Assembly: GCA_013360585.1 (NCBI GenBank) | Contig: JABWBH010000005.1 | Span: 1 to 64,000 of the forward strand | From: Phycisphaerae bacterium | GTDB taxonomy: Bacteria > Planctomycetota > Phycisphaerae > UBA1845 | Reading direction: 5' to 3' | DNA length: 64,000 nucleotides | Shown: piece by piece, positions 7,098 through 17,935 of the stretch | How positions within the stretch are numbered: position 1 is the first letter of the stretch | Layout of the letters: every line of letters begins with the position of its first letter | The notes under the pieces: generated by a model | What the model was told of the DNA's origin: nothing | Database searches by the model: none | Seen by the model: only the letters and a program-made list of their open reading frames with translations | Program-made: the position numbers and the translations under genes

Positions 7098-8453
7098 TCA
7101 GGATTCAGCGGTGACGGAGATTCCCGACGCTGCGGACGACCTGACGGCAGTGGACCGCGTCAATGACCCGGCGGGCATCGCCTCGAACGTCGCTGTGACG
7201 GCAACGCCCGAAGCCCGGCGGTTCAGCGCTTCCACGACGACGCGGCAAAGCCTCCTCACGACGCCGCTCCAGTCCTCCTCGGCGACGCGCCGGCTGATGC
7301 GTTCAGCGTCCGCGCGGGTTCGCGTCGCCGCCACGGCGTCGCAGGCGGCGGCGAACGACGGGGGGTCCGTCGCGATCCGGACGTGCGGCGCGTAGCGCTC
7401 GGTCTCGGGCATCGGCGTTGAAATCACCGGCAGTCCGGCGGCGAGGTATTCCCGAAGCTTGATCGGATTGACGTTGCGGGTCAGATCGTTGCAGCGGAAC
7501 GGCAGGATCCCCGCGCAGAAGCGAGCGCAATACGCGGGGAGGTCGGCGTAAGGCTTGCGCCCGAGCAGGCGGACGTTCGAGAGCTTCCGCAGCGATCCGG
7601 TGTCCGCGCGACACTCGCCCAGCAGGACGAAATGATGTTGCGGACGAAGCCGTGCCGTCTCCGCAATCAACTCGACGTCCACCCAGTCCCCGATCAACCC
7701 GAAGAACCCGAACACGCAGCCGTCGATGTCCTTCAGATCCGCCGGCGTCGGCCAGGGTCCGCGCCACGCCCGGGCGAAGTGCGCATACTCGACGCCGTGA
7801 CGCGCCAGGTGGATGTCCGGACGGATCGCGCGCCGCGCATCCGCCAGCGGTTCAGACGACGCAAACACCACGTCCGCGGACGCAAGAAGCTCCCGCTCCT
7901 GACGCCGGATCGCCTCGGCGTCATACCCCTCGAACGCGCCGAATTCGTCCACGCAGTAGTAGATGAACGCCTCTTCGTTCAAGGCGCCTCGAAGAAACCC
8001 GACATCCGGTGCGAACGACCAGACCTGCACGGGGGCAGAGGGTTTGACGCCGGCCCGGTCGCGCAACCGCACCCGGATCTGGGCGCGCAGCAAGGCTCGG
8101 TTGATCGCGCGAAGCCCTCGGCTGAAAACGCCGGGGATGACCAGCGGGGTGAAGTGCGTCAGGGATTCGTTGACCGGGCGGCAGCCTTGGGCGGCACGCA
8201 GCAGCGTGCGCAGCGACTTCGTCACGTCCGCGCCGGTCAGTTTCGGTCGGCGTGACCCGTGATAGTTGACCCACAGCACGCGGTTCGTCCGGGCCAACTC
8301 GCGCATGATGTGATGCTTGCCGGTCGGGTCGAAGTCGTAATCGCTGGCGAGGCAGACGATGATCCGGTTCCGGAGGACTGCATCCTCCGTCGCCGGCGCC
8401 GCCTCGCAGGCGCGCGCGGACGGAGCCGTCGCGTTGGCGCAGGCGGAGATCAT
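7098..8453 (-). CDS. Glycosyltransferase (GT1/GT4-like fold), exopolysaccharide cluster
   Basis: 451 residues. A Rossmann-like N-terminus (RIIVCLASDYDFDPTGKHH) is followed by a donor-sugar domain with GFFGLIGDWVDVELI, VRLLGRKPYADLPAY and PIKLREYLAAGLPVISTPMPE, the usual signature of GT-B glycosyltransferases that use a nucleotide sugar. It starts inside the stop codon of the BY-kinase gene (ATGA overlap at 8450-8453), so it is translated with it and probably adds a sugar to the polymer exported by the neighbouring Wza-like protein. The acceptor is unknown. The first ~25 residues are Ala-rich and poorly conserved-looking. Confidence 0.85.
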   Translation of the reverse strand: MISACANATAPSARACEAAPATEDAVLRNRIIVCLASDYDFDPTGKHHIMRELARTNRVLWVNYHGSRRPKLTGADVTKSLRTLLRAAQGCRPVNESLTHFTPLVIPGVFSRGLRAINRALLRAQIRVRLRDRAGVKPSAPVQVWSFAPDVGFLRGALNEEAFIYYCVDEFGAFEGYDAEAIRRQERELLASADVVFASSEPLADARRAIRPDIHLARHGVEYAHFARAWRGPWPTPADLKDIDGCVFGFFGLIGDWVDVELIAETARLRPQHHFVLLGECRADTGSLRKLSNVRLLGRKPYADLPAYCARFCAGILPFRCNDLTRNVNPIKLREYLAAGLPVISTPMPETERYAPHVRIATDPPSFAAACDAVAATRTRADAERISRRVAEEDWSGVVRRLCRVVVEALNRRASGVAVTATFEAMPAGSLTRSTAVRSSAASGISVTAES

Positions 8454-9352
8454 TCCGGATCCTTCGCGTCGTGGTAGTAGTCGTTGTAGTAGTGATACGG
8501 ACGGTAATACCCGTATCCGTAACCGTAGCCGTAACCGTATCCGCCGTGCGGACGATCACGCCCGATCACCAGTCCGCCGAGGATCGGCACGTTGTTCGCC
8601 TGAAGCAGACGGACGGCGGTGCGGGCGGTGCTTTCATGCGTGTAATTGAGCCGCACGATGACGATCACGCCGCTGCACATCTGACCGATGATGCCGGCGT
8701 CCGTCACCGTCGTCGCCGGCGGCGTGTCCACGAACGTGTAATGATACTCCTCCTGCATGCGCCGAAAGAGGCGGCGGGTCTCGGTCGAACTGAGCAGCTC
8801 CGCCGCCGAACGTCCTTTTGTGGATCCGGCGGGAATGAAAAAGAGGTTCGGCAGGGGCGTCGCCTGAATCACGTCCTCATACCGCGCCTCCCCGGCCAGC
8901 ACTTCCGCCAGCCCCGGTTTTGAGGGAAGGTTCAGCAGCTTGTGCAGCGTGCTGCGGCGGAAGTCGCCGTCCACCATCAGGACGCGGTGGTGCCGGATTT
9001 CCGCCATGATGCACCCGACGTTCAGCGTGGTGACGCTCTTCCCCTCACGGGGAATCGCGCTGGTGATCGCGATGACCTGGCGCTCGCCGGCGGCGTTCAT
9101 GCTCAGCAGACGCGTGCGCAGCGACCGATACTGCTCGCTGACGAGGGAGGTTTTTTCATAATACGCGACGAGCGCCTCGGCCATCCCCGGGATCGGCGTC
9201 GCCTCCGGAAAGTCGGGGCGGTCGCTTAGCGGGGGAGGTTCGTCGATGAGCGGGCGCGGTTCGACGGGCACGGGCGACGACGGTGGCGTGGCGAGAGCGT
9301 CGCGTGTCCGCTCCTGTTCGGCGCGCTTCAAGGCTTCCAGCACTTTTCCCAT
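8450..9352 (-). CDS. Bacterial tyrosine kinase (CpsD/CapB/Wzc-C type), polysaccharide chain-length control
   Basis: 300 residues, cytoplasmic BY-kinase without the Wzz membrane part. Visible are the RSLRTRL motif that precedes the kinase core, Walker A PREGKSVTT (about 101-109), Walker A' VLMVDGDFRRSTLHKLL (about 124-140) and Walker B FVDTPPA. The C-terminal 30 residues are a Tyr cluster: six GY dipeptides and then RPYHYYNDYYHDAK, the site of autophosphorylation in this family. The GY stretch is encoded by an imperfect 6-bp repeat (about 8510-8550). No Wzz-like partner is adjacent; the gene sits between the Wza-like gene (95-bp gap) and the overlapping glycosyltransferase. Confidence 0.9.
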   Translation of the reverse strand: MGKVLEALKRAEQERTRDALATPPSSPVPVEPRPLIDEPPPLSDRPDFPEATPIPGMAEALVAYYEKTSLVSEQYRSLRTRLLSMNAAGERQVIAITSAIPREGKSVTTLNVGCIMAEIRHHRVLMVDGDFRRSTLHKLLNLPSKPGLAEVLAGEARYEDVIQATPLPNLFFIPAGSTKGRSAAELLSSTETRRLFRRMQEEYHYTFVDTPPATTVTDAGIIGQMCSGVIVIVRLNYTHESTARTAVRLLQANNVPILGGLVIGRDRPHGGYGYGYGYGYGYYRPYHYYNDYYHDAKDPE

Positions 9353-9447
9353 CTCAAGGCGTCCTGTGCCTCGCGCCGTCGTCGTTGTTACGCGAATCAG
9401 CGCGGATGTCTTCAGACCTCAAGTCCGCGGTTCCCGGCGCCGCGCGC

Positions 9448-10284
9448 CTAATACCGGCGCGGTCCGAACCTCCGGGTGTTCCCGGGGGTGTCGTTCTCGT
9501 CGTCGTCATACTCGTCGCTGGCGTCCATCACCGTCGCCGGCGTCACGTAGGCGTCGAGCACCGGACTGACCGGGAAGAGCAACTCCCGGATGCGCAGCCC
9601 CACCCACGCCAGCGGCGTCGGCGGCACGTAGATGATGTCGTCCGGTTCGATCAGGATGTTGGCGCTCGTGTCGCCGGTGCGGATCATCCGGTCCACGTCG
9701 ACGATGATCTCGCGTCGCTCCTTCCGGTCGGGGCTGGGGCGGATGATCTTCACCTGGCTGGTCCACGACAGGAAGCTCGTCCCGCTGCGGGCGATGACTT
9801 CCAGGAGGGTGTCGCGCCCGGTGTAGACGCGCGGCCCGACGCCGCCGACCTCTCCGAAGACGTAGTACTTCTTGCTGTTGTAACCCGAGACGCGGACGTT
9901 GACCTTCGGATCCTGATAATACTTGCTCAGAAGCACCTCGAGCTTCGAGGCGATCTCCTTCGCGGTCATGCCGCTGACCTTGACTTCGCCGAGCAGGCGG
10001 AGGTTGATCTTGCCGTCCGGCTGAACCCGGTGCATCTCCCCGTCAATTTCGAGGATGCGCGGGGCGCTGATCTCGATGCCGTCGGGCACCCCCACGCGGT
10101 ACTCGATCGCCGAGACCTCGTGCTCATGCGCCTGAAGGAAGTCGAGCATGTCCTTGTTCTTGTGCGAGCAACCGGCCACCGGCAGGATGATCGCCGCGAG
10201 CGCCGTCGCGCCGGCCCGCCGCCGCATCCGCGCCGCCTTGCGGGGACGTCCAGCGCCGGAAACGTGTCGTTTGTCCGTCATCAT
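9448..10284 (-). CDS. Polysaccharide biosynthesis/export outer-membrane lipoprotein (Wza family)
   Basis: A signal peptide ends in the lipobox LPVAGC (Cys at residue 39 of the long form). A basic N-terminal extension suggests that translation may instead begin at the internal ATG at 10227, which has AAGG about 8 bp upstream and would give a normal 18-residue leader. The poly-export domain (HRVQPDGKINLRLLGEVKVSG, KLEVLLSKYYQDPKVNVRV) and one SLBB-like region (YYVFGEVGGVGPRVYTG) follow; the C-terminus is acidic. Wza-type proteins form the outer-membrane channel for capsule or exopolysaccharide. First gene of the minus-strand export operon with the BY-kinase and glycosyltransferase. Confidence 0.9.
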   Translation of the reverse strand: MMTDKRHVSGAGRPRKAARMRRRAGATALAAIILPVAGCSHKNKDMLDFLQAHEHEVSAIEYRVGVPDGIEISAPRILEIDGEMHRVQPDGKINLRLLGEVKVSGMTAKEIASKLEVLLSKYYQDPKVNVRVSGYNSKKYYVFGEVGGVGPRVYTGRDTLLEVIARSGTSFLSWTSQVKIIRPSPDRKERREIIVDVDRMIRTGDTSANILIEPDDIIYVPPTPLAWVGLRIRELLFPVSPVLDAYVTPATVMDASDEYDDDENDTPGNTRRFGPRRY

Positions 10285-10662
10285 GCGCGTCGATCCGACT
10301 GACCGGACGATCCCCCGTCGTCCGCTTCGCTGAGTCCGCGCGGCGCGCTTCCGACGCGTTTTGCGGACTCGGGAGGTTTATCGGGTGAACGCGGACCGTC
10401 CTGAATACCGGACGACGCCGAGGCGGAACTTGGCCGGGAAAGATCGGAAGGCGCGGCGTTATCGGCCGCCGGTCGAACGGGCGCGCGCTCCCTTCTCGGA
10501 CGGATTTCACCCGCGGGCGCGCAGGACCGATACAGCCCGTGAGGTCGGCGACGGTCCGCAATCCTCCAGCCTGACGGGTTCTGCGCCCCCTGCGGAGGGT
10601 GGCGACGGAAGGGCGGCAGGATCGGCCGGTCGCGATATTCAGGTCACAGGCGGCGGAAACGG
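10285..10662. other. Divergent intergenic region, 378 bp
   Basis: Lies between the oppositely transcribed Wza-like and ATPase genes and must contain both promoters; none is convincing by eye. An 8-bp perfect inverted repeat (10332-10339 with 10363-10370, 23-nt loop) sits in the leader of the Wza-like operon and could be a regulatory hairpin. No gene seen. Confidence 0.4.
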
Positions 10663-12147
10663 ATGTACGAGAAATTCTTCGGGCTCCGCGAGAATCCTTT
10701 CAACAACGCCGCCCACCCGCGCGCATTCTTCCCGACGCCGATGCATGAAGAGGCGCTCGCCTGCCTGATCTACGCCGTCCGGGAGGATAAAGGTCCGGTG
10801 CTGCTGACGGCCGGAGCCGGCACGGGCAAGACCTTTCTGGCGCGGCTGCTGGCGTCAAGGCTTCCGGGTCAGGCGGTCGTCGGCTGGATGTCTCAAGGAT
10901 GCGCCACGTCCGGCGACGTGCTGGAGTCCGCATGCGCGGCGTTCGGTCTCGACGTGGAGGAGGATGCCGGGCGCGTCCGCATGCTGCGGGCGCTGCGCGA
11001 GTTCGCGGCGCAGGAGCGGGTCGCCGATCGCATCCCCGTCCTGATCATCGACGAGGGTCAGGCGCTTCCCGTCGAATGCCTTGAGCAGGTTCGCGTGCTG
11101 GCGGATTCGGATGCGGCGACGCCCAACGGACTCCAGTTGGTTCTGGTCGGACACCCCGAACTGAACACGCTGTTGCAATCCTCGAGGATGCGCCAGTTCC
11201 GCCAGCGCTTGTGCCGCATCATTCGCCTGGGACCGCTGAGTCTCGGTCAGACCGCGGAATACATCCGTCATCGGCTGCGCATCGCCGGCGCCGACCCCTG
11301 CGATGTATTTGAACCGGACGCGATCCGGCTGATCCACGAACGCTCCGGAGGAATCCCGCGCGTGATCAACACGCTGTGCGATGCGGCGATGCTGGCGGCC
11401 TACGCCGACCAGAAACGCAAGATCAACGCTGAACATCTGCACGGCAGCATGAGCGAGGCCGACTTCGACGGCGCCGCGGACGGCGCCCTTCCGACACCGC
11501 CTCGGTGCGAATCCGCCCACGGTGGCGTGACGTTCGAAGCATCCCCCGCTTTCCCGGCGGACGCAGGAATGACCGACCTTCAACCCTGGCAGGAGATTGT
11601 CGGCCGTCTCAACCTGCTCGAATCTCAGGCGCAGACCGTCGCCTCGCTGGAGCGGAGGCTGGAGGCGTTGACGACGCGCACGACGGCGGTGCGATCGTCG
11701 GAGACCCGGTCGCAGCAGGCCTTGATGCTCAGGACGATTTCGATCCTCCGCTCCACCCTGGAGCAGTTCCGCGCCTTGTCGGCGAGGGTTGAGGCGACCA
11801 CGGAGCGTCCTCGTCCGACCGCCTCCACGGCGCAGTCAACTGCGACTGCGGAAGCACCGCCGCCGGACGCCTTTCGGGTTCACGAACAAGAATCTTCCGG
11901 CGCACCGTTCACGGCGCTTGTGGACCGCGCAGACGCCAGTCCGCCGTCCACGCCGGCGCGCTTTCACGCCTCACCGGAGGGAGTGAACCTGCGCCTCGTA
12001 GCCGAAGCGGAGATGCTCGTTCGAACGACCTGTGGCGACGAAGACGCGGACCTGATTTTCAACGCGCCGCGCCCCCCACGGCGATCTGACGGCGACTCTC
12101 CGCTTCTCGTCCAGCTCAACGACATGATCGCACTGCTGTCGGCCTGA
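10663..12147 (+). CDS. ExeA/XrtA-associated-type AAA ATPase
   Basis: 494 residues. The start MYEKFFGLRENPFN is the typical opening of the GspA/ExeA family and of the ATPases encoded in exosortase-linked exopolysaccharide clusters. Walker A GAGTGKT (51-57), Walker B VLIIDEGQ (about 126-133), VLVGHPEL and the sensor region GGIPRVINTLCD are intact. The AAA core ends near residue 270; the remaining ~220 residues are Ala/Pro/Ser-rich with a short coiled coil around 315-375 and no recognised domain. ExeA itself assembles secretin multimers through a peptidoglycan-binding domain that is absent here. Divergent position next to the export operon supports a role in polysaccharide export, but no exosortase gene is in view. 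Confidence 0.85.
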   Translation: MYEKFFGLRENPFNNAAHPRAFFPTPMHEEALACLIYAVREDKGPVLLTAGAGTGKTFLARLLASRLPGQAVVGWMSQGCATSGDVLESACAAFGLDVEEDAGRVRMLRALREFAAQERVADRIPVLIIDEGQALPVECLEQVRVLADSDAATPNGLQLVLVGHPELNTLLQSSRMRQFRQRLCRIIRLGPLSLGQTAEYIRHRLRIAGADPCDVFEPDAIRLIHERSGGIPRVINTLCDAAMLAAYADQKRKINAEHLHGSMSEADFDGAADGALPTPPRCESAHGGVTFEASPAFPADAGMTDLQPWQEIVGRLNLLESQAQTVASLERRLEALTTRTTAVRSSETRSQQALMLRTISILRSTLEQFRALSARVEATTERPRPTASTAQSTATAEAPPPDAFRVHEQESSGAPFTALVDRADASPPSTPARFHASPEGVNLRLVAEAEMLVRTTCGDEDADLIFNAPRPPRRSDGDSPLLVQLNDMIALLSA

Positions 12148-12528
12148 CGCTCAAGGTCCGAGTTCTTCATTCCTGACGAATTTCGACAAATTCACTTTGA
12201 CGTGCGCGTTGATCTCTTGTCCCCAAGCCTCCTCACGGAAACCTGTGAAGGAGGCGGAACTGCGCAATCTGGGAAGAGTCTAAACTTCCCGAGTTTCCCT
12301 AATGCGAACTCGCCCGTCATGCCAGCTAGAATTCTCAAGGGTGAGGGCGAAGCGTGGAGCACGGCGGGATGCGGTCCGTTTCATCTCATCAACCCGGTCA
12401 GGCAGGTTGAGGTGTTGCGGGGTCGCGCCCGCAATCAGCGCGTCGGAGTGAATCCGGGCGTGACTTTCCGCCGGAAGTGAATAACCTCTCACGACTTCCG
12501 AATCACGGGTGCAGGGGATCAACAAAGC
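12148..12528. other. Intergenic region, 381 bp
   Basis: No gene supported. Two hairpins are visible: a ~10-bp stem with one bulge at 12227-12255 and a 6-bp stem (GGGAAG/CTTCCC) around 12270-12290. Neither has a T-run, so they are not clear terminators. The promoter of the GT2 gene should be here but is not recognisable. Confidence 0.35.
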
Positions 12529-14076
12529 GTGAGTGCCCTTTTTCACTGGCTGGTACTGGTTATTTTCATCGTCGCAACCGTGGCGCTGGCCGTTTACGGC
12601 CTGCACCTTTACGTGTTGCTCTATCTTTTCCTGCGCAAGCGCGGAGAAAACCGCTCGCGGCAGACGACGACGATCGAAGCGTACCGGAAGTCCACGCCGG
12701 AGGATCGCTGGCCGATCGTGACCAGCCAGATCCCGCTCTACAACGAGGCTTCGGTGGCGGAGCGCGTCATTCGCGCGGTGGCCGGGATGGACTACGCGGC
12801 CGGGCGCCACGAAATCCAGGTTCTCGACGACAGCGACGATGTCACGGTCGAGCGCGTCGATCAGGTTGTGCGGACGTTGGCGCGGCGGGGCGTGGACATC
12901 AAGGTGGTGCGGCGCGAGACGCGAGAGGGATACAAGGCCGGAGCGCTGGCGCACGGACTGGCACAGGCGCGCGGCGAGTTCGTTGCGGTGTTCGACGCGG
13001 ACTTCGTTCCCCCTGAGGATTTTCTCCGTCGGGCGGTTCCGCTGCTGGCGGTCGAACCGCATCTTGCCTGTCTTCAGGGGCGCTGGGCGCATCTGAACCG
13101 TGATGATTCGTGGATGACGCGGGCGCAGGCGCTGGGGATCGACGGACATTTCGCGATCGAGCAGGGTGCCCGGGCCTGGAACGGGCTGATGCTGAACTTC
13201 AACGGCACCGCCGGGGTCTGGCGCCGCTCGGCGATCGAGGATCCGGCGGTCGGAGGTTGGAGCGGCGACACGCTGACGGAAGACCTTGACTTGTCGTACC
13301 GGGCGCAGCTTGCGGGGTGGAAGCTGGATTACTGCCTCGACCTGGCTTGTCCGGCGGAACTGCCCGGCGACATTCTCGCGCTGAAAAGCCAGCAGCGGCG
13401 CTGGGCGACGGGGTCGATCCAGACCGCGTGCAAGCTTCTGCCGCGCATTTGGCGCGCTCCGCTGGGGTTCGGCGAGAAGCTTGAGGCGACGCTGCACCTG
13501 ACGCATTACTCGGTGTCGTTGTGGATGTTGCTTCTGGCGCTGGTGGCGCGTCCGGTGGTGTTCGCAATGACCGGACATCCGCTGCTGGGACACTGGTTCT
13601 GGTCGATGTGGCTGGTGGTGCTCGTGGCGTCGCTGGCGCCGCCGCTGACGTACGCGTTCGCGCGTTACAGTCTCGACGGCCGCTGGGGCGGTCTTGCGGC
13701 GATTCCGGGGATGTTCGTGCTCGGGTGCGGGTTGTGCTTAAGCAACGGGCTGGCGGTCCTGCGCGGGCTGAAGCTCCGCGGAGGCGAGTTCGTGCGCACG
13801 CCGAAGAGCGGCAGCCTCGGGGGCCGCGCGCGGGGGCTTTATCGCACCGCGACGGGGCGGATGTGGGCGCTGGAGTTCGCTCTCGGGTTGTACGCGTTGT
13901 TCTGCTTCGTTGTGTACTACCTCGATATTCATCGGGGGTTCAGCTTCTTTCTGCTGATTTACGCCGTCGGGTTCCTCGTTACCGCGTACCTGTCGATGCC
14001 TGCGGACTTCGGCATCGGCGGGCGGTCGTCCGCCACGGAAACGCCGGTTGCTGATCGTCCCGCCCTGGAGGCGTGA
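12529..14076 (+). CDS. Membrane glycosyltransferase family 2 (cellulose-synthase/mannan-synthase-like)
   Basis: 515 residues. A first transmembrane helix (about 6-35) is followed by a cytoplasmic GT-A domain with all processive-synthase marks: DD in VLDDSDD, DAD in VFDADF (D156, D158), TED in GDTLTEDLDLSYR (about 250-252) and QQRRW (288-292). Four or five more transmembrane helices follow. The arrangement resembles CslA-type beta-(gluco)mannan synthases and bacterial cellulose-synthase-like enzymes that polymerise from UDP- or GDP-sugars and extrude the chain. It starts with GTG preceded by AGGGGAT about 12 bp upstream. No BcsB, PilZ domain or other partner is adjacent, so the polymer is unknown. 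Confidence 0.88.
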   Translation: MSALFHWLVLVIFIVATVALAVYGLHLYVLLYLFLRKRGENRSRQTTTIEAYRKSTPEDRWPIVTSQIPLYNEASVAERVIRAVAGMDYAAGRHEIQVLDDSDDVTVERVDQVVRTLARRGVDIKVVRRETREGYKAGALAHGLAQARGEFVAVFDADFVPPEDFLRRAVPLLAVEPHLACLQGRWAHLNRDDSWMTRAQALGIDGHFAIEQGARAWNGLMLNFNGTAGVWRRSAIEDPAVGGWSGDTLTEDLDLSYRAQLAGWKLDYCLDLACPAELPGDILALKSQQRRWATGSIQTACKLLPRIWRAPLGFGEKLEATLHLTHYSVSLWMLLLALVARPVVFAMTGHPLLGHWFWSMWLVVLVASLAPPLTYAFARYSLDGRWGGLAAIPGMFVLGCGLCLSNGLAVLRGLKLRGGEFVRTPKSGSLGGRARGLYRTATGRMWALEFALGLYALFCFVVYYLDIHRGFSFFLLIYAVGFLVTAYLSMPADFGIGGRSSATETPVADRPALEA

Positions 14077-14194: not shown

Positions 14195-16144
14195 GTGTTG
14201 ATTCATGTCATGATGTTCGTCGTTTCAGCGTCCACCGGCGCCGCTTCGCCGCTTCAGGATCGAGTTGTCACCCTCTCCTCCAGCGGCGTTCGTTCGGCTG
14301 ACGCGCTTCCCGGCGCTGGTTATCTCGATGACGCGGAGCTTGAGCGACGGCTGCAGGAACTGGTCGTCAAGTTCCCGGATGCGTGCATGTTGACTTCGAT
14401 CGGGAAGAGCAGGGGCGGTCGGGAGCTTTATTGTCTGCGCCTCGGAAGAGGGGCGGACGTGGACGTGCGCCCCGCGCTGGCGATCGTCGCGGGGTTTGAC
14501 GCGGACTTCCCCGTCTCGACTGAGACCGCGGTGCGCGTTGCGGAGCGACTTTTGAACCCGCCTGCGGACGTGGCGGGAAACAAGCTCGTTGATGTTCACA
14601 CGGTTTATGTTCTGCCGAGGATGAACCCGGACGGCTGGGCGACGGCGTCCGCGATGCCGCGGCGCGAACATCGAGGGACGCTGCGTCCGGTGGACGATGA
14701 CCGCGACGGCGCGGCGGACGAGGACGGTCCGGACGACGTCAATTGTGACGGGGTGATCACGCTGATGCGCGTCGTTGATCCCGAGGCGACGCACCTTCCG
14801 GACCCGGCCGAGCCGCGACTCCTGAAAGAGGCGGACCGCGCGAAAGGCGAGAAGCCGGTCTACAAGATTTACACCGAAGGCGTCGATGATGACACCGACG
14901 GGGAGTACAACGAAGACGGTCCGGGCGCCGTGGACCTCAACCGCAACTTCATGCACGCCTACCCCGAACACGAGGTTGGCGCCGGCCCCTACCCGGTCAG
15001 CGAACCCGAGTCCAAGGCGCTGATCGATTTTTTCCTCGCCCACCCGCGCATCGCGCTGACCGTCGTTTACGGTCGCCACGACCACGTGGTGAAGACGCCC
15101 GAAAGCGGCAGGAACGACGCGACCGGACGCGTGCCGCTCGCGTTGCACCAGGATGACGCGGGGCATTACGAGGAGATCGGCAAGCGCTACCGCGATCTGA
15201 CGGGAATCAAGGAAGTTCCGAAAGAGGATGCGGACGGAGCCTTTTCCGCCTGGTGCTACGCCCAACTGGGGATTCCGACGTTCGCCTGCCGGGTCTGGAC
15301 GCGGCCCGAATCCTCCTCCACCGGCGGCGACGCAAAGAAGCCCGACGACGCTGAGAGGAAAGAACCCGCGAAAAACAAGCCCGAGGACGGTGCGGCGACA
15401 CCGGAACCTGGCGGTGTCACGCAAACGCCGCCTTCCGAGACTTCAAGCAAGGCTGCTGGGACTCCGGAACCCGCGGTCGAGACTTCGGCGAGCGCGCCTG
15501 GAGCTCAGGAACAGGCTCCAACCCCGGAGTCTCCGAAGCTTCCGAACGTTGAGAAGTCCCCGAAAGAGAAGGTCGAACCTGCGGACAAGGAGGCGGCGGC
15601 GTGGCTGACGTACTCGGATTCACTCGGCGATCACGGGGGGTTCGTTCCGTGGGCGCCCTTTGAGCACCCGACGCTCGGGGGGGTTGAGATCGGCGGGTTC
15701 GTCCCTCTGTTTCTAACGACGCCGCCGGTGGCGGAGCTGGACGGAATCGCCGACCGTCAGGCGGCGTTCGTGTTCGACCTCGGCACGCGTCTGCCGAAAC
15801 CGACCGTGCAACCGCTGAAGATCACGCCGCTTTCGGATCGGGTGTTCGAGATCGAGACGGCGATCGTGAACGACGGGTACTTCCCCACGGCGATGGCGAT
15901 GGGGCGGCAGAACCGCCGAGTGCGCCCGATCGTCGTGACGATCGAACTGCCGCTGGAGCGGATCCTCGCCGGCGAGCGCGTCGTCCGGGTCTGGTCGGTC
16001 GCGGGAAGCGGCGGGCGCGAGAAGCTGCGCTGGATCGTCACGGGCGAGGCGGGCGAGGCGGTCGCGATCACGTTCACCTCCGAGCGATATGTCTTCGATC
16101 AGGCGCAGGCGACGCTGCCTGCGAGGGGCGATCGGGCGCCTTGA
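14195..16144 (+). CDS. M14 carboxypeptidase-like protein lacking all catalytic residues (pseudopeptidase)
   Basis: 649 residues, exported by a short N-terminal hydrophobic segment. It aligns along its length with the next gene, but the zinc ligands and catalytic base are replaced. The HGNE motif of the neighbour is here DADF (102-105), the third zinc His is Gly (about 293, VYGRHDH versus SYHNAGG) and the catalytic Glu of FTNELW is Arg (FACRVW, about 366). The substrate-Arg region DLNRNF is kept. Two acidic DxDxDG-like loops (about 166-190 and 230-242) resemble calcium sites. Residues 372-465 are a Pro/Ser/Lys/Glu-rich linker absent from the neighbour. GGAGGTGG lies just ahead of the GTG (14195) and TTG (14198), so either may start translation. 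The 18-bp gap to the active paralogue suggests co-expression. Confidence 0.85.
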   Translation: MLIHVMMFVVSASTGAASPLQDRVVTLSSSGVRSADALPGAGYLDDAELERRLQELVVKFPDACMLTSIGKSRGGRELYCLRLGRGADVDVRPALAIVAGFDADFPVSTETAVRVAERLLNPPADVAGNKLVDVHTVYVLPRMNPDGWATASAMPRREHRGTLRPVDDDRDGAADEDGPDDVNCDGVITLMRVVDPEATHLPDPAEPRLLKEADRAKGEKPVYKIYTEGVDDDTDGEYNEDGPGAVDLNRNFMHAYPEHEVGAGPYPVSEPESKALIDFFLAHPRIALTVVYGRHDHVVKTPESGRNDATGRVPLALHQDDAGHYEEIGKRYRDLTGIKEVPKEDADGAFSAWCYAQLGIPTFACRVWTRPESSSTGGDAKKPDDAERKEPAKNKPEDGAATPEPGGVTQTPPSETSSKAAGTPEPAVETSASAPGAQEQAPTPESPKLPNVEKSPKEKVEPADKEAAAWLTYSDSLGDHGGFVPWAPFEHPTLGGVEIGGFVPLFLTTPPVAELDGIADRQAAFVFDLGTRLPKPTVQPLKITPLSDRVFEIETAIVNDGYFPTAMAMGRQNRRVRPIVVTIELPLERILAGERVVRVWSVAGSGGREKLRWIVTGEAGEAVAITFTSERYVFDQAQATLPARGDRAP

Positions 16145-16162
16145 CGCCGGAAAGGAACGCAC

Positions 16163-17935
16163 ATGACTCGGACGGAAAAACGCCTCTTGACGGTTGCGCT
16201 GTCAGCCTGCACGGCGTTGGCAACGTCGGCGTCGCCCGCGCAGGAGCCTCTGCCGCGCAAGGTAGAACTGTCGTTCAACCGGTTTTACGATTTTGAACAA
16301 CTGACGGAGGCGCTGAATGACCTTGTCCGCGCCTATCCGAACCTGCTGACGATCCGCTCGATCGGGAAGAGCACGCAAGGCCGGGATATCTGGCTGGTGA
16401 CGATCAACAACCCTGCAACCGGTGAAGATCGCGACAAGCCTGCGATGTACATCGACGGCAATGTTCACGGCAACGAGGTACAGGCGTCGGAGGTGTGCCT
16501 GTATACGATCTGGTACCTGACAAAGAGCTACGGCGTCGTCGACAAGCTGACGCGGCTCGTCGATGAGCGGGCGTTTTACATTGTTCCGAGCGTCAACCCG
16601 GACGGGCGGGCGTACTGGTTCCGCGAGCCGAACACCTCCAGCTCGGCGCGCAGCGGCATGAAGCCCACCGACGACGACTTCGACGGTTTGTACGACGAGG
16701 ACGGTCCGGACGATCTCGATGGCGACGGACACATCACGACGATGTGGAAGGCCGATCCGAACGGGCGCTGGCGGCGGTCTCCGCGTGATCCGCGGATCTT
16801 CGAGCGCGTCGCCGCCGACGAAAAGGGCGAGTACACGATGCTCGGCGAGGAGGGCATCGACAACGACGGCGACGGCCGGCTCAACGAGGACGATCCCGGC
16901 GGCTACGACATGAACCGGAACTGGCCCAGCGGCTGGCAGCCGAACCACGTCCAGTACGGCGCGGGTGAGTATCCCTTCTCCTATCCCGAGCCTGCGGCGA
17001 TCGGTGCCTTCATCCTCGATCATCCGAACATCGCGGCGGTGCAGTCGTATCACAACGCCGGAGGCATGATGCTGCGCGGTCCGGGCGTGGAGTCGCGTGA
17101 GAGCTTCTACCCGCGCGAGGATCTGGCGGTGTACGACGAGATCGGTCAGACGGGGGAGCGCATACTCCCGTTCTACCGTTATCTTGTGATCTGGAAGGAC
17201 TTGTACGAGGTTCACGGCGGTTTCGTGAACTGGACGGCGGAGGGGCTGGGCATCTTCAGCTTCACCAACGAACTCTGGAACGCGGATCAGTATTTTCAGG
17301 GGAAGGAAGGAGACTGGCAGCGGCGCGACGCGCGGATGCGCTTCGGCGATCTGCTCGAGTTCGAGCATCATTTCGTATCTTACAAGCCGCACCAGCACCC
17401 CTTTTACGGCGAGGTTCTCATCGGCGGGTGGACGAAGTTCGCCTCGCGCGTCCCGCCGGTGTTTATGCTGGATGAGCTTTGTCACCGCAACTTCGCGTTC
17501 ACGATGTACCACGCGGATCAGATGCCGAAGCTGTCGTTCTCCCGGGTCCGTGTAAAGTCGCTCGTCCCGGCGACGTGGGAAGTGACCGTCGAAGTGACGA
17601 ACGAGCGGCTGATTCCGACAGTCAGCGGCGTCGCGGCGCAGAAGCGCATCGGCGCGCGCGACGCGGTCGCGTTGACTCCGACGTCGGACACGAACCCCGC
17701 GGAGGCGCCGCGCGTCGTCGCTTCGGGCACGGTCGGCGGCTGGTTCGACGCCGCGATGTCGCCGACGGAGCATCAGCCGCACCGCATCTGGGTGGACCGC
17801 GGCGTCGCGGGGCGCGGCCAGCGTCTGTTTCGCTGGATCATCTCGGGCGAAGGCGAGGTCGAGATCACCTACCGGTCTCAGAAGGCCGGTGTGATCCGCC
17901 GCACAGTGGCGCTCGTCGAGCAGGACACCCCCTAA
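16163..17935 (+). CDS. Secreted zinc carboxypeptidase, M14 family
   Basis: 590 residues with a signal peptide (about 1-26, cut near ASPAQ). The M14 active site is complete: HGNE zinc ligands (H102, E105), DMNRNW (substrate Arg), SYHNAGG (H297) and catalytic FTNELW (E370). Between the first and third ligands is an insert of two acidic loops (DDDFDGLYDEDG with DLDGDGH, and IDNDGDGRLNEDD, about 170-245) that looks like calcium-binding EF-hand-type sequence. The C-terminal ~130 residues form a beta-rich domain shared with the upstream paralogue. It removes C-terminal residues from peptides outside the cytoplasm; substrate unknown. Good ribosome site GGAAAGG 7-13 bp before ATG. Confidence 0.93.
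   Translation: MTRTEKRLLTVALSACTALATSASPAQEPLPRKVELSFNRFYDFEQLTEALNDLVRAYPNLLTIRSIGKSTQGRDIWLVTINNPATGEDRDKPAMYIDGNVHGNEVQASEVCLYTIWYLTKSYGVVDKLTRLVDERAFYIVPSVNPDGRAYWFREPNTSSSARSGMKPTDDDFDGLYDEDGPDDLDGDGHITTMWKADPNGRWRRSPRDPRIFERVAADEKGEYTMLGEEGIDNDGDGRLNEDDPGGYDMNRNWPSGWQPNHVQYGAGEYPFSYPEPAAIGAFILDHPNIAAVQSYHNAGGMMLRGPGVESRESFYPREDLAVYDEIGQTGERILPFYRYLVIWKDLYEVHGGFVNWTAEGLGIFSFTNELWNADQYFQGKEGDWQRRDARMRFGDLLEFEHHFVSYKPHQHPFYGEVLIGGWTKFASRVPPVFMLDELCHRNFAFTMYHADQMPKLSFSRVRVKSLVPATWEVTVEVTNERLIPTVSGVAAQKRIGARDAVALTPTSDTNPAEAPRVVASGTVGGWFDAAMSPTEHQPHRIWVDRGVAGRGQRLFRWIISGEGEVEITYRSQKAGVIRRTVALVEQDTP

Follow-up and report, generated by a model that had tools for sequence, protein, structure and literature searches.

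A conserved pair of M14 proteins in Planctomycetota, one lacking its catalytic residues and one predicted to be active

Introduction

Why would a bacterium keep, immediately upstream of a gene for an apparently intact M14 carboxypeptidase, a full-length paralogue that has lost the residues needed for catalysis? The question is raised by two genes in the window, the 64,000-nucleotide stretch of DNA analysed here. The first gene of the pair and its product are called PS, the second AC, and residue names such as His69 and Glu270 follow CPA numbering. More than 100 planctomycete genomes carry this pair with the genes in this order, and the dead twin is therefore a kept, working protein. That PS and AC form a conserved pseudoenzyme–enzyme pair is close to certain, and PS is probably a partner subunit of AC.

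The gene pair and its products

PS and AC are consecutive genes on the same strand, both with intact frames, and the PS stop codon is followed after 18 bp by the AC gene (Table 1). PS is listed with a GTG start, although translation could also begin at TTG or ATG, a few codons downstream, and its N-terminal hydrophobic segment is VLIHVMMFVVSASTGAASPLQD. AC is preceded by a Shine-Dalgarno-like sequence of its own, GGAAAGGAA. Both products are predicted to be exported, as hydrophobic N-terminal segments were found in 12 of 13 PS and 43 of 45 AC placed by a simple, heuristic scan. The pair is flanked by a family 2 glycosyltransferase gene (12529-14076) and uvrC. Upstream, the stretch 7098-14076 resembles a polysaccharide biosynthesis and export gene run encoding glycosyltransferases, tyrosine-kinase-like and Wza-like proteins and an ExeA-like ATPase, an assignment made by eye except for the glycosyltransferase.

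The sole Pfam match of both proteins is Peptidase_M14 (PF00246; cut-off 21.6 bits), at 72.4 bits for PS and at the higher score given in Table 1 for AC, and NCBIfam assigns no family to either. They share 33% identity along their length. Structure prediction of each chain singly, which the preliminary description of the locus had called for, returned a carboxypeptidase fold for both PS (AlphaFold pTM 0.72) and AC (pTM 0.67). The PS model superposes on carboxypeptidase T with a VIA-align Z of 27 and an rmsd of about 3.3 over about 278 residues, and the AC model matches solved carboxypeptidases with a Z of about 25. The N/E (regulatory, CPD-like) subfamily of M14 is recognised by a transthyretin-like β-sandwich at the C-terminus. 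A β-sandwich is predicted at the C-terminus of PS, and in whole-chain comparison the CPN, CPM and CPD chains align up to residue 612-641. AC carries every mark of the family, namely the profile, the HxxE...H ligands, Glu270 and the Asn144/Arg145 pair, and is predicted to be an active zinc carboxypeptidase. PS belongs to M14 by its profile match and its fold.

Table 1. Features of the PS–AC locus, with positions in the window
Feature	Position	Strand	Basis or remark
PS, M14 pseudopeptidase, predicted exported, 649 aa	14195..16144	+	Pfam, model, fold match
PS D102-A-D-F105, replacing HxxE (zinc ligands His69/Glu72)	14498..14509	+	alignments
PS acidic insert D167-D241, DxDxDG-type loops, calcium-binding-like	14693..14917	+	conservation
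PS N249-R250, equivalents of carboxylate-binding Asn144/Arg145	14939..14944	+	kept here, not in all orthologues
PS G293-R-H-D-H297, zinc ligand His196 replaced by Gly	15071..15085	+	Gly in 89/106 PS
PS R366, replacing catalytic Glu270	15290..15292	+	alignments
PS Pro/Glu/Ala/Lys-rich linker, residues 374-462, after the Glu270 strand	15314..15580	+	pLDDT < 50, predicted disordered
PS last M14 helix and C-terminal β-sandwich, residues 465-646	15587..16132	+	model, alignment
AC, M14 metallocarboxypeptidase, predicted exported, 590 aa	16163..17935	+	Pfam 153.6 bits, model, fold match
AC H102-G-N-E105, zinc ligands	16466..16477	+	invariant in 104/104 AC
AC acidic DxDxDG insert D170-D243	16670..16891	+	
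AC N251-R252 (Asn144/Arg145)	16913..16918	+	invariant in 104 AC
AC H297, third zinc ligand	17051..17053	+	invariant in 104 AC
AC Y348 (Tyr248)	17204..17206	+	103/104 AC, one gap
AC E370, catalytic Glu270	17270..17272	+	102/102 AC reaching that position

Loss of the active site

At the positions of the AC zinc ligands His102, Glu105 and His297 and the catalytic Glu370, PS has Asp102, Phe105, Gly293 and Arg366. The preliminary description had read these differences from the letters, setting DADF against HGNE, VYGRHDH against SYHNAGG and FACRVW against FTNELW, and had concluded that a full-length protein with an intact frame has lost its catalytic Glu together with the two zinc motifs. Both the readings and the conclusion are borne out by alignment, which places FDADF opposite VHGNE and in which the 649-residue frame follows AC along its length. 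The equivalent of Tyr248, present in AC as Tyr348, is also gone from PS. A placement of other His or Glu residues of PS at the zinc site, named beforehand as the observation that would speak against the loss, is absent from an alignment of 218 sequences including 106 PS and 104 AC. The fold landmarks that had been listed, MNPDG/VNPDG and D-x-NRN, are present in the PS of the window; NRN is less general, since it is not invariant among PS orthologues. As the models retain the M14 fold while residues are lost at the catalytic positions, PS is taken to be a true pseudopeptidase and not an enzyme that was wrongly aligned.

The loss extends across the group. In the same alignment, none of the 106 PS has all four of His69, Glu72, His196 and Glu270, the zinc ligands and general base of an active M14 enzyme; four orthologues keep two of these residues, 12 keep one and 90 keep none. 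All four are found in 102 of 104 AC, with contig ends truncating the remaining two, and in all seven more distant single-copy M14 relatives from the phylum. Six loci with more distant single relatives (L234-L239) have full active sites and no PS was found adjoining them; the DxDxDG insert is present in some and has a shorter form in others. The four PS that keep two catalytic residues (genomes G445, G465, G625 and G657; loci L188, L232, L227 and L228) sit on early PS branches, which fits a stepwise loss, and these proteins may reveal its order.

It is conceivable that the metal site was relocated rather than lost, with a DxxH in the first motif and the His of GxHDN serving a different catalysis. 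His occupies position 72 in 47 of 106 PS and Asp occupies position 69 in 66 of 106, and His72 co-occurs weakly with the downstream His (27/20/21/37, Fisher p 0.03, with kinship ignored). However, no three-ligand set is common to the group, the PS of the window has Phe at position 72, and the Glu270 position is filled by Arg, Pro, Ser, Thr and others. His295 of the GRHDH motif lies two residues beyond the lost ligand, and His is found there in just 46% of PS. A relocated metal site is thus highly improbable.

Distribution, gene order and fusion

Searches with PS matched 14 of 60 relatives; at the level of the class 90 of 397 genomes had a match, and at that of the phylum 102 of 392, with AC and some other M14 matches included in these counts. 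About 110 loci were fetched and read. The pair occurs across Planctomycetota, in about a quarter of the genomes sampled. In 89 genomes, in 14 more that are mostly divergent, and in the window, AC follows immediately after PS on the same strand; among these roughly 105 linked pairs none has the opposite orientation. The conserved synteny of an inactive and an active M14 gene, suggested at the outset as a check, is therefore found in about 105 genomes and always in the same order. In many pairs the two genes share a 4-nt overlap of the ATGA type, as in translational coupling; larger computed overlaps are an artefact of taking the earliest possible start. A single scan of contigs for occurrences beyond Planctomycetota, made with literal peptide patterns, matched only two close relatives, both of the same genus, one a Phycisphaerae MAG and the other a Planctomycetota MAG.

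Linkage has been broken in one genome of the same genus (G002), where PS and AC lie inside separate contigs of 122 and 254 kb and both are retained. It has been tightened in genome G374, where a single 1235-residue frame (L143:4004-7711) contains PS and AC behind a single signal peptide, a linker standing in for the signal peptide of AC. Its congener G763 (L241, L250) has an identical junction at a contig edge.

Several apparent exceptions were rejected. Eleven lineages that seemed to have AC only (G429, G453, G472, G506, G556, G592, G612, G625, G650, G657 and G439) each have a divergent PS upstream. A match spanning both genes in G768 is not a fusion, as the first gene ends in a stop and the second begins with its own signal peptide. 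The PS of this genome (L242) has an enlarged linker region with an extra stretch resembling a small domain (GSWTGVIEIPDMGVLDFTIAVEGG...). Internal TGA codons, which in several matches hinted at selenocysteine, are terminal stops in the loci readable in the matched frame, and a seemingly shortened PS in G401 is explained by a stretch of N in its assembly, not by a deletion.

The genes around the pair, which were sought as a clue to substrate, are generally little conserved. The exception is family f24, in 11 genomes of which an ABC ATPase, an FtsX/MacB-type permease and a small exported protein without a Pfam match precede PS and AC (L125, L128, L129, L130, L143, L153, L154, L156, L157, L158 and L159; e.g., L156:1356-8932). 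In nine of the 11 an HI0933-type flavoprotein gene lies downstream. The permease of L156, the copy read, has a His-rich loop. This gene run could represent metal uptake linked to a zinc peptidase.

Evolution of the pair

In a FastTree phylogeny all 106 PS form one clade (SH-like support 0.87) and all 104 AC another (0.99), although PS branches are long and a single tree method was used. As each is monophyletic, a single duplication is indicated, earlier than the divergence of the sampled families. The PS and AC trees have 60 of 99 splits in common, compared with 0.2 in shuffles; this congruence is as expected for joint vertical inheritance and follows from shared inheritance alone.

Could PS simply be a functionless duplicate in decay? 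Its overall rate of change is about 1.8 times that of AC (tree lengths 69.7 and 39.6), and the residues at its dead site are varied. Between species of the same genus, however, the PS core has a pairwise Nei-Gojobori dN/dS of about 0.14-0.28, compared with about 0.09-0.13 in AC. These values lie well below 1, and PS is therefore under purifying selection, somewhat weaker than that on AC. Frames are intact in more than 100 genomes, the acidic insert is invariant, and PS is retained even when unlinked. Decay is barely credible, and for the group as a whole the conservation data already refute it. The preliminary suggestion that the dead paralogue serves a function beside an active enzyme has strong support in its pan-phylum conservation and in purifying selection, linkage and fusion.

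Conserved positions of PS

Constraint on PS is strongest at W486, M191, N559 and W613, in the acidic insert and at residues of the C-terminal part. Within the insert, D169, D171, D181, E240 and D241 are conserved in 100% of PS and D231, D233, D235, E176 and E228 in 99%, and the same residues are found in AC. Since the insert is common to PS, AC and some single relatives, it is ancestral; its acidic loops suggest putative calcium binding. Other conserved residues are specific to PS (R192, F252, P371, W486, E498, W613 and G593) and are candidates for marking a PS-specific surface. Among these Trp486, in the C-terminal part, is invariant.

The former active site is less constrained. Of 514 ranked positions, G293 comes 110th, R250 177th, F105 197th, D102 201st and R366 326th, and pocket positions as a whole rank between 108 and 408, except Asn146 at 26. 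This distribution bears on the proposal that PS works on its own as a peptide-binding receptor or binder, with the old cleft in non-catalytic use and only a pathway in common with AC. The PS of the window does retain the Asn249-Arg250 carboxylate-binding pair and the NPDG landmark, but the mid-ranking pocket and the retention of Asn144 and Arg145 in just 40% and 67% of PS make a receptor improbable. With conservation concentrated in the insert and C-terminal domain and not in the pocket, a partner or scaffold is favoured over a receptor or an alternative metalloenzyme. Of the roles first put forward (regulatory subunit, inhibitor and receptor), the receptor thus loses ground to the other two.

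The linker is fast evolving and PS-specific, with a dN of 0.15-0.25 compared with 0.035-0.046 for the core, and the segment has a median length of 90 residues in PS and 41 in AC. Because it lies near the rim of the cleft, just past the former Glu270 strand, PS may act as an inhibitor or chaperone-like escort that silences AC, perhaps via the linker, until export or a signal releases it. That PS is translated first and is often coupled to AC would suit such a role. However, no part of PS is less conserved than the linker, which can be as short as 34 residues, not exceeding its length in AC, and permanent fusion in two species is more in keeping with a constant subunit than with an inhibitor that dissociates. 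An inhibitor or escort is, in our view, rather unlikely.

A proposed role for PS

PS very likely has a non-catalytic role that is bound up with AC, in view of the group-wide residue loss, the retention of an intact dead copy with its live sister, the coupling, the fusion and the selection. What linkage, coupling and fusion demonstrate is a common pathway and compartment rather than contact. The simplest form of such a role would be a hetero-oligomer, for which TldD/TldE offers a documented precedent in another fold, and on balance PS is probably a partner subunit of AC. The faster evolution of PS and its poorly constrained linker argue against this. Both a physical complex and the direction of any regulation are what we infer from the sequences.

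On this reading a single duplication of an exported M14 peptidase, already equipped with the acidic insert and C-terminal β-sandwich, predated the diversification of the sampled Planctomycetota. The AC lineage would have remained a zinc carboxypeptidase, and the PS lineage would have shed its catalytic Glu as well as the two zinc motifs and been retained as a non-catalytic partner. The two proteins are probably exported at roughly equal levels to form a hetero-oligomer, with the shared acidic inserts and C-terminal domains as the likely contact surfaces. Within it PS would stabilise AC, or shape and gate substrate access to its cleft, much as in TldE/TldD. A bolder version, in which a phylum-wide heteromeric M14 peptidase has an ancient PS locked to AC through calcium-loaded inserts and needed for activity or specificity, seems about as apt to prove wrong as right. 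Because the genes are adjacent, the proteins exported, and fusions and an unlinked case are available, the service of the dead protease to its live twin is directly testable.

Comparison with known systems

Carboxypeptidase T from Thermoactinomyces (PDB 1obr) is among the closest solved folds to PS by VIA-align. It is also the best sequence match of AC. It is a single active enzyme and is not known to have such an acidic insert or an inactive partner.

The literature searched yielded no description of a bacterial M14 enzyme/pseudoenzyme pair, and PqqF/PqqG, sought as another possible analogue, gave no result. Most studies of pseudoenzymes concern animals and fungi. The M14 pseudopeptidases named in the part of the review PMC11266112 used here are vertebrate, Drosophila and fungal, none beside an active bacterial partner. 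AEBP1/ACLP, CPXM1, CPXM2 and Ecm14 resemble PS in being exported proteins with the M14 fold that have lost catalytic or substrate-binding residues. They retain His69 and Glu72 according to Table 2 of that source, whereas PS has lost both, and unlike PS none of them has a gene for an active partner next to it within a bacterial operon. The nearest parallel within M14 is carboxypeptidase D, which carries several M14 units per chain, the third predicted to be inactive (PMC5683605, PMC11266112). Its multi-unit chain recalls the natural PS–AC fusion of G374 and G763. However, carboxypeptidase D is animal and membrane-bound with the inactive unit last, while the planctomycete proteins normally come from two separate genes, of which the first encodes the inactive member.

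The most instructive comparison lies outside the family. TldD and TldE of E. coli are paralogues that form a heterodimeric metalloprotease, in which one member is without the metal motif and both are needed for activity (PMC5810440). PS and AC are likewise a bacterial paralogous pair with one member lacking its metal site, and are also co-inherited. They do not belong to the PmbA/TldD family with its HExxxH motif, as Pfam gives Peptidase_M14 only. The folds and families are unrelated, both PS and AC carry predicted export signals, and complex formation and joint activity are demonstrated for TldD/TldE but inferred for PS–AC. By analogy, PS–AC may be an active/inactive metalloprotease pair of the TldD/TldE kind, here within family M14, and PS provides a bacterial M14 pseudoenzyme with one origin, more than 100 orthologues and an active sister constantly present.
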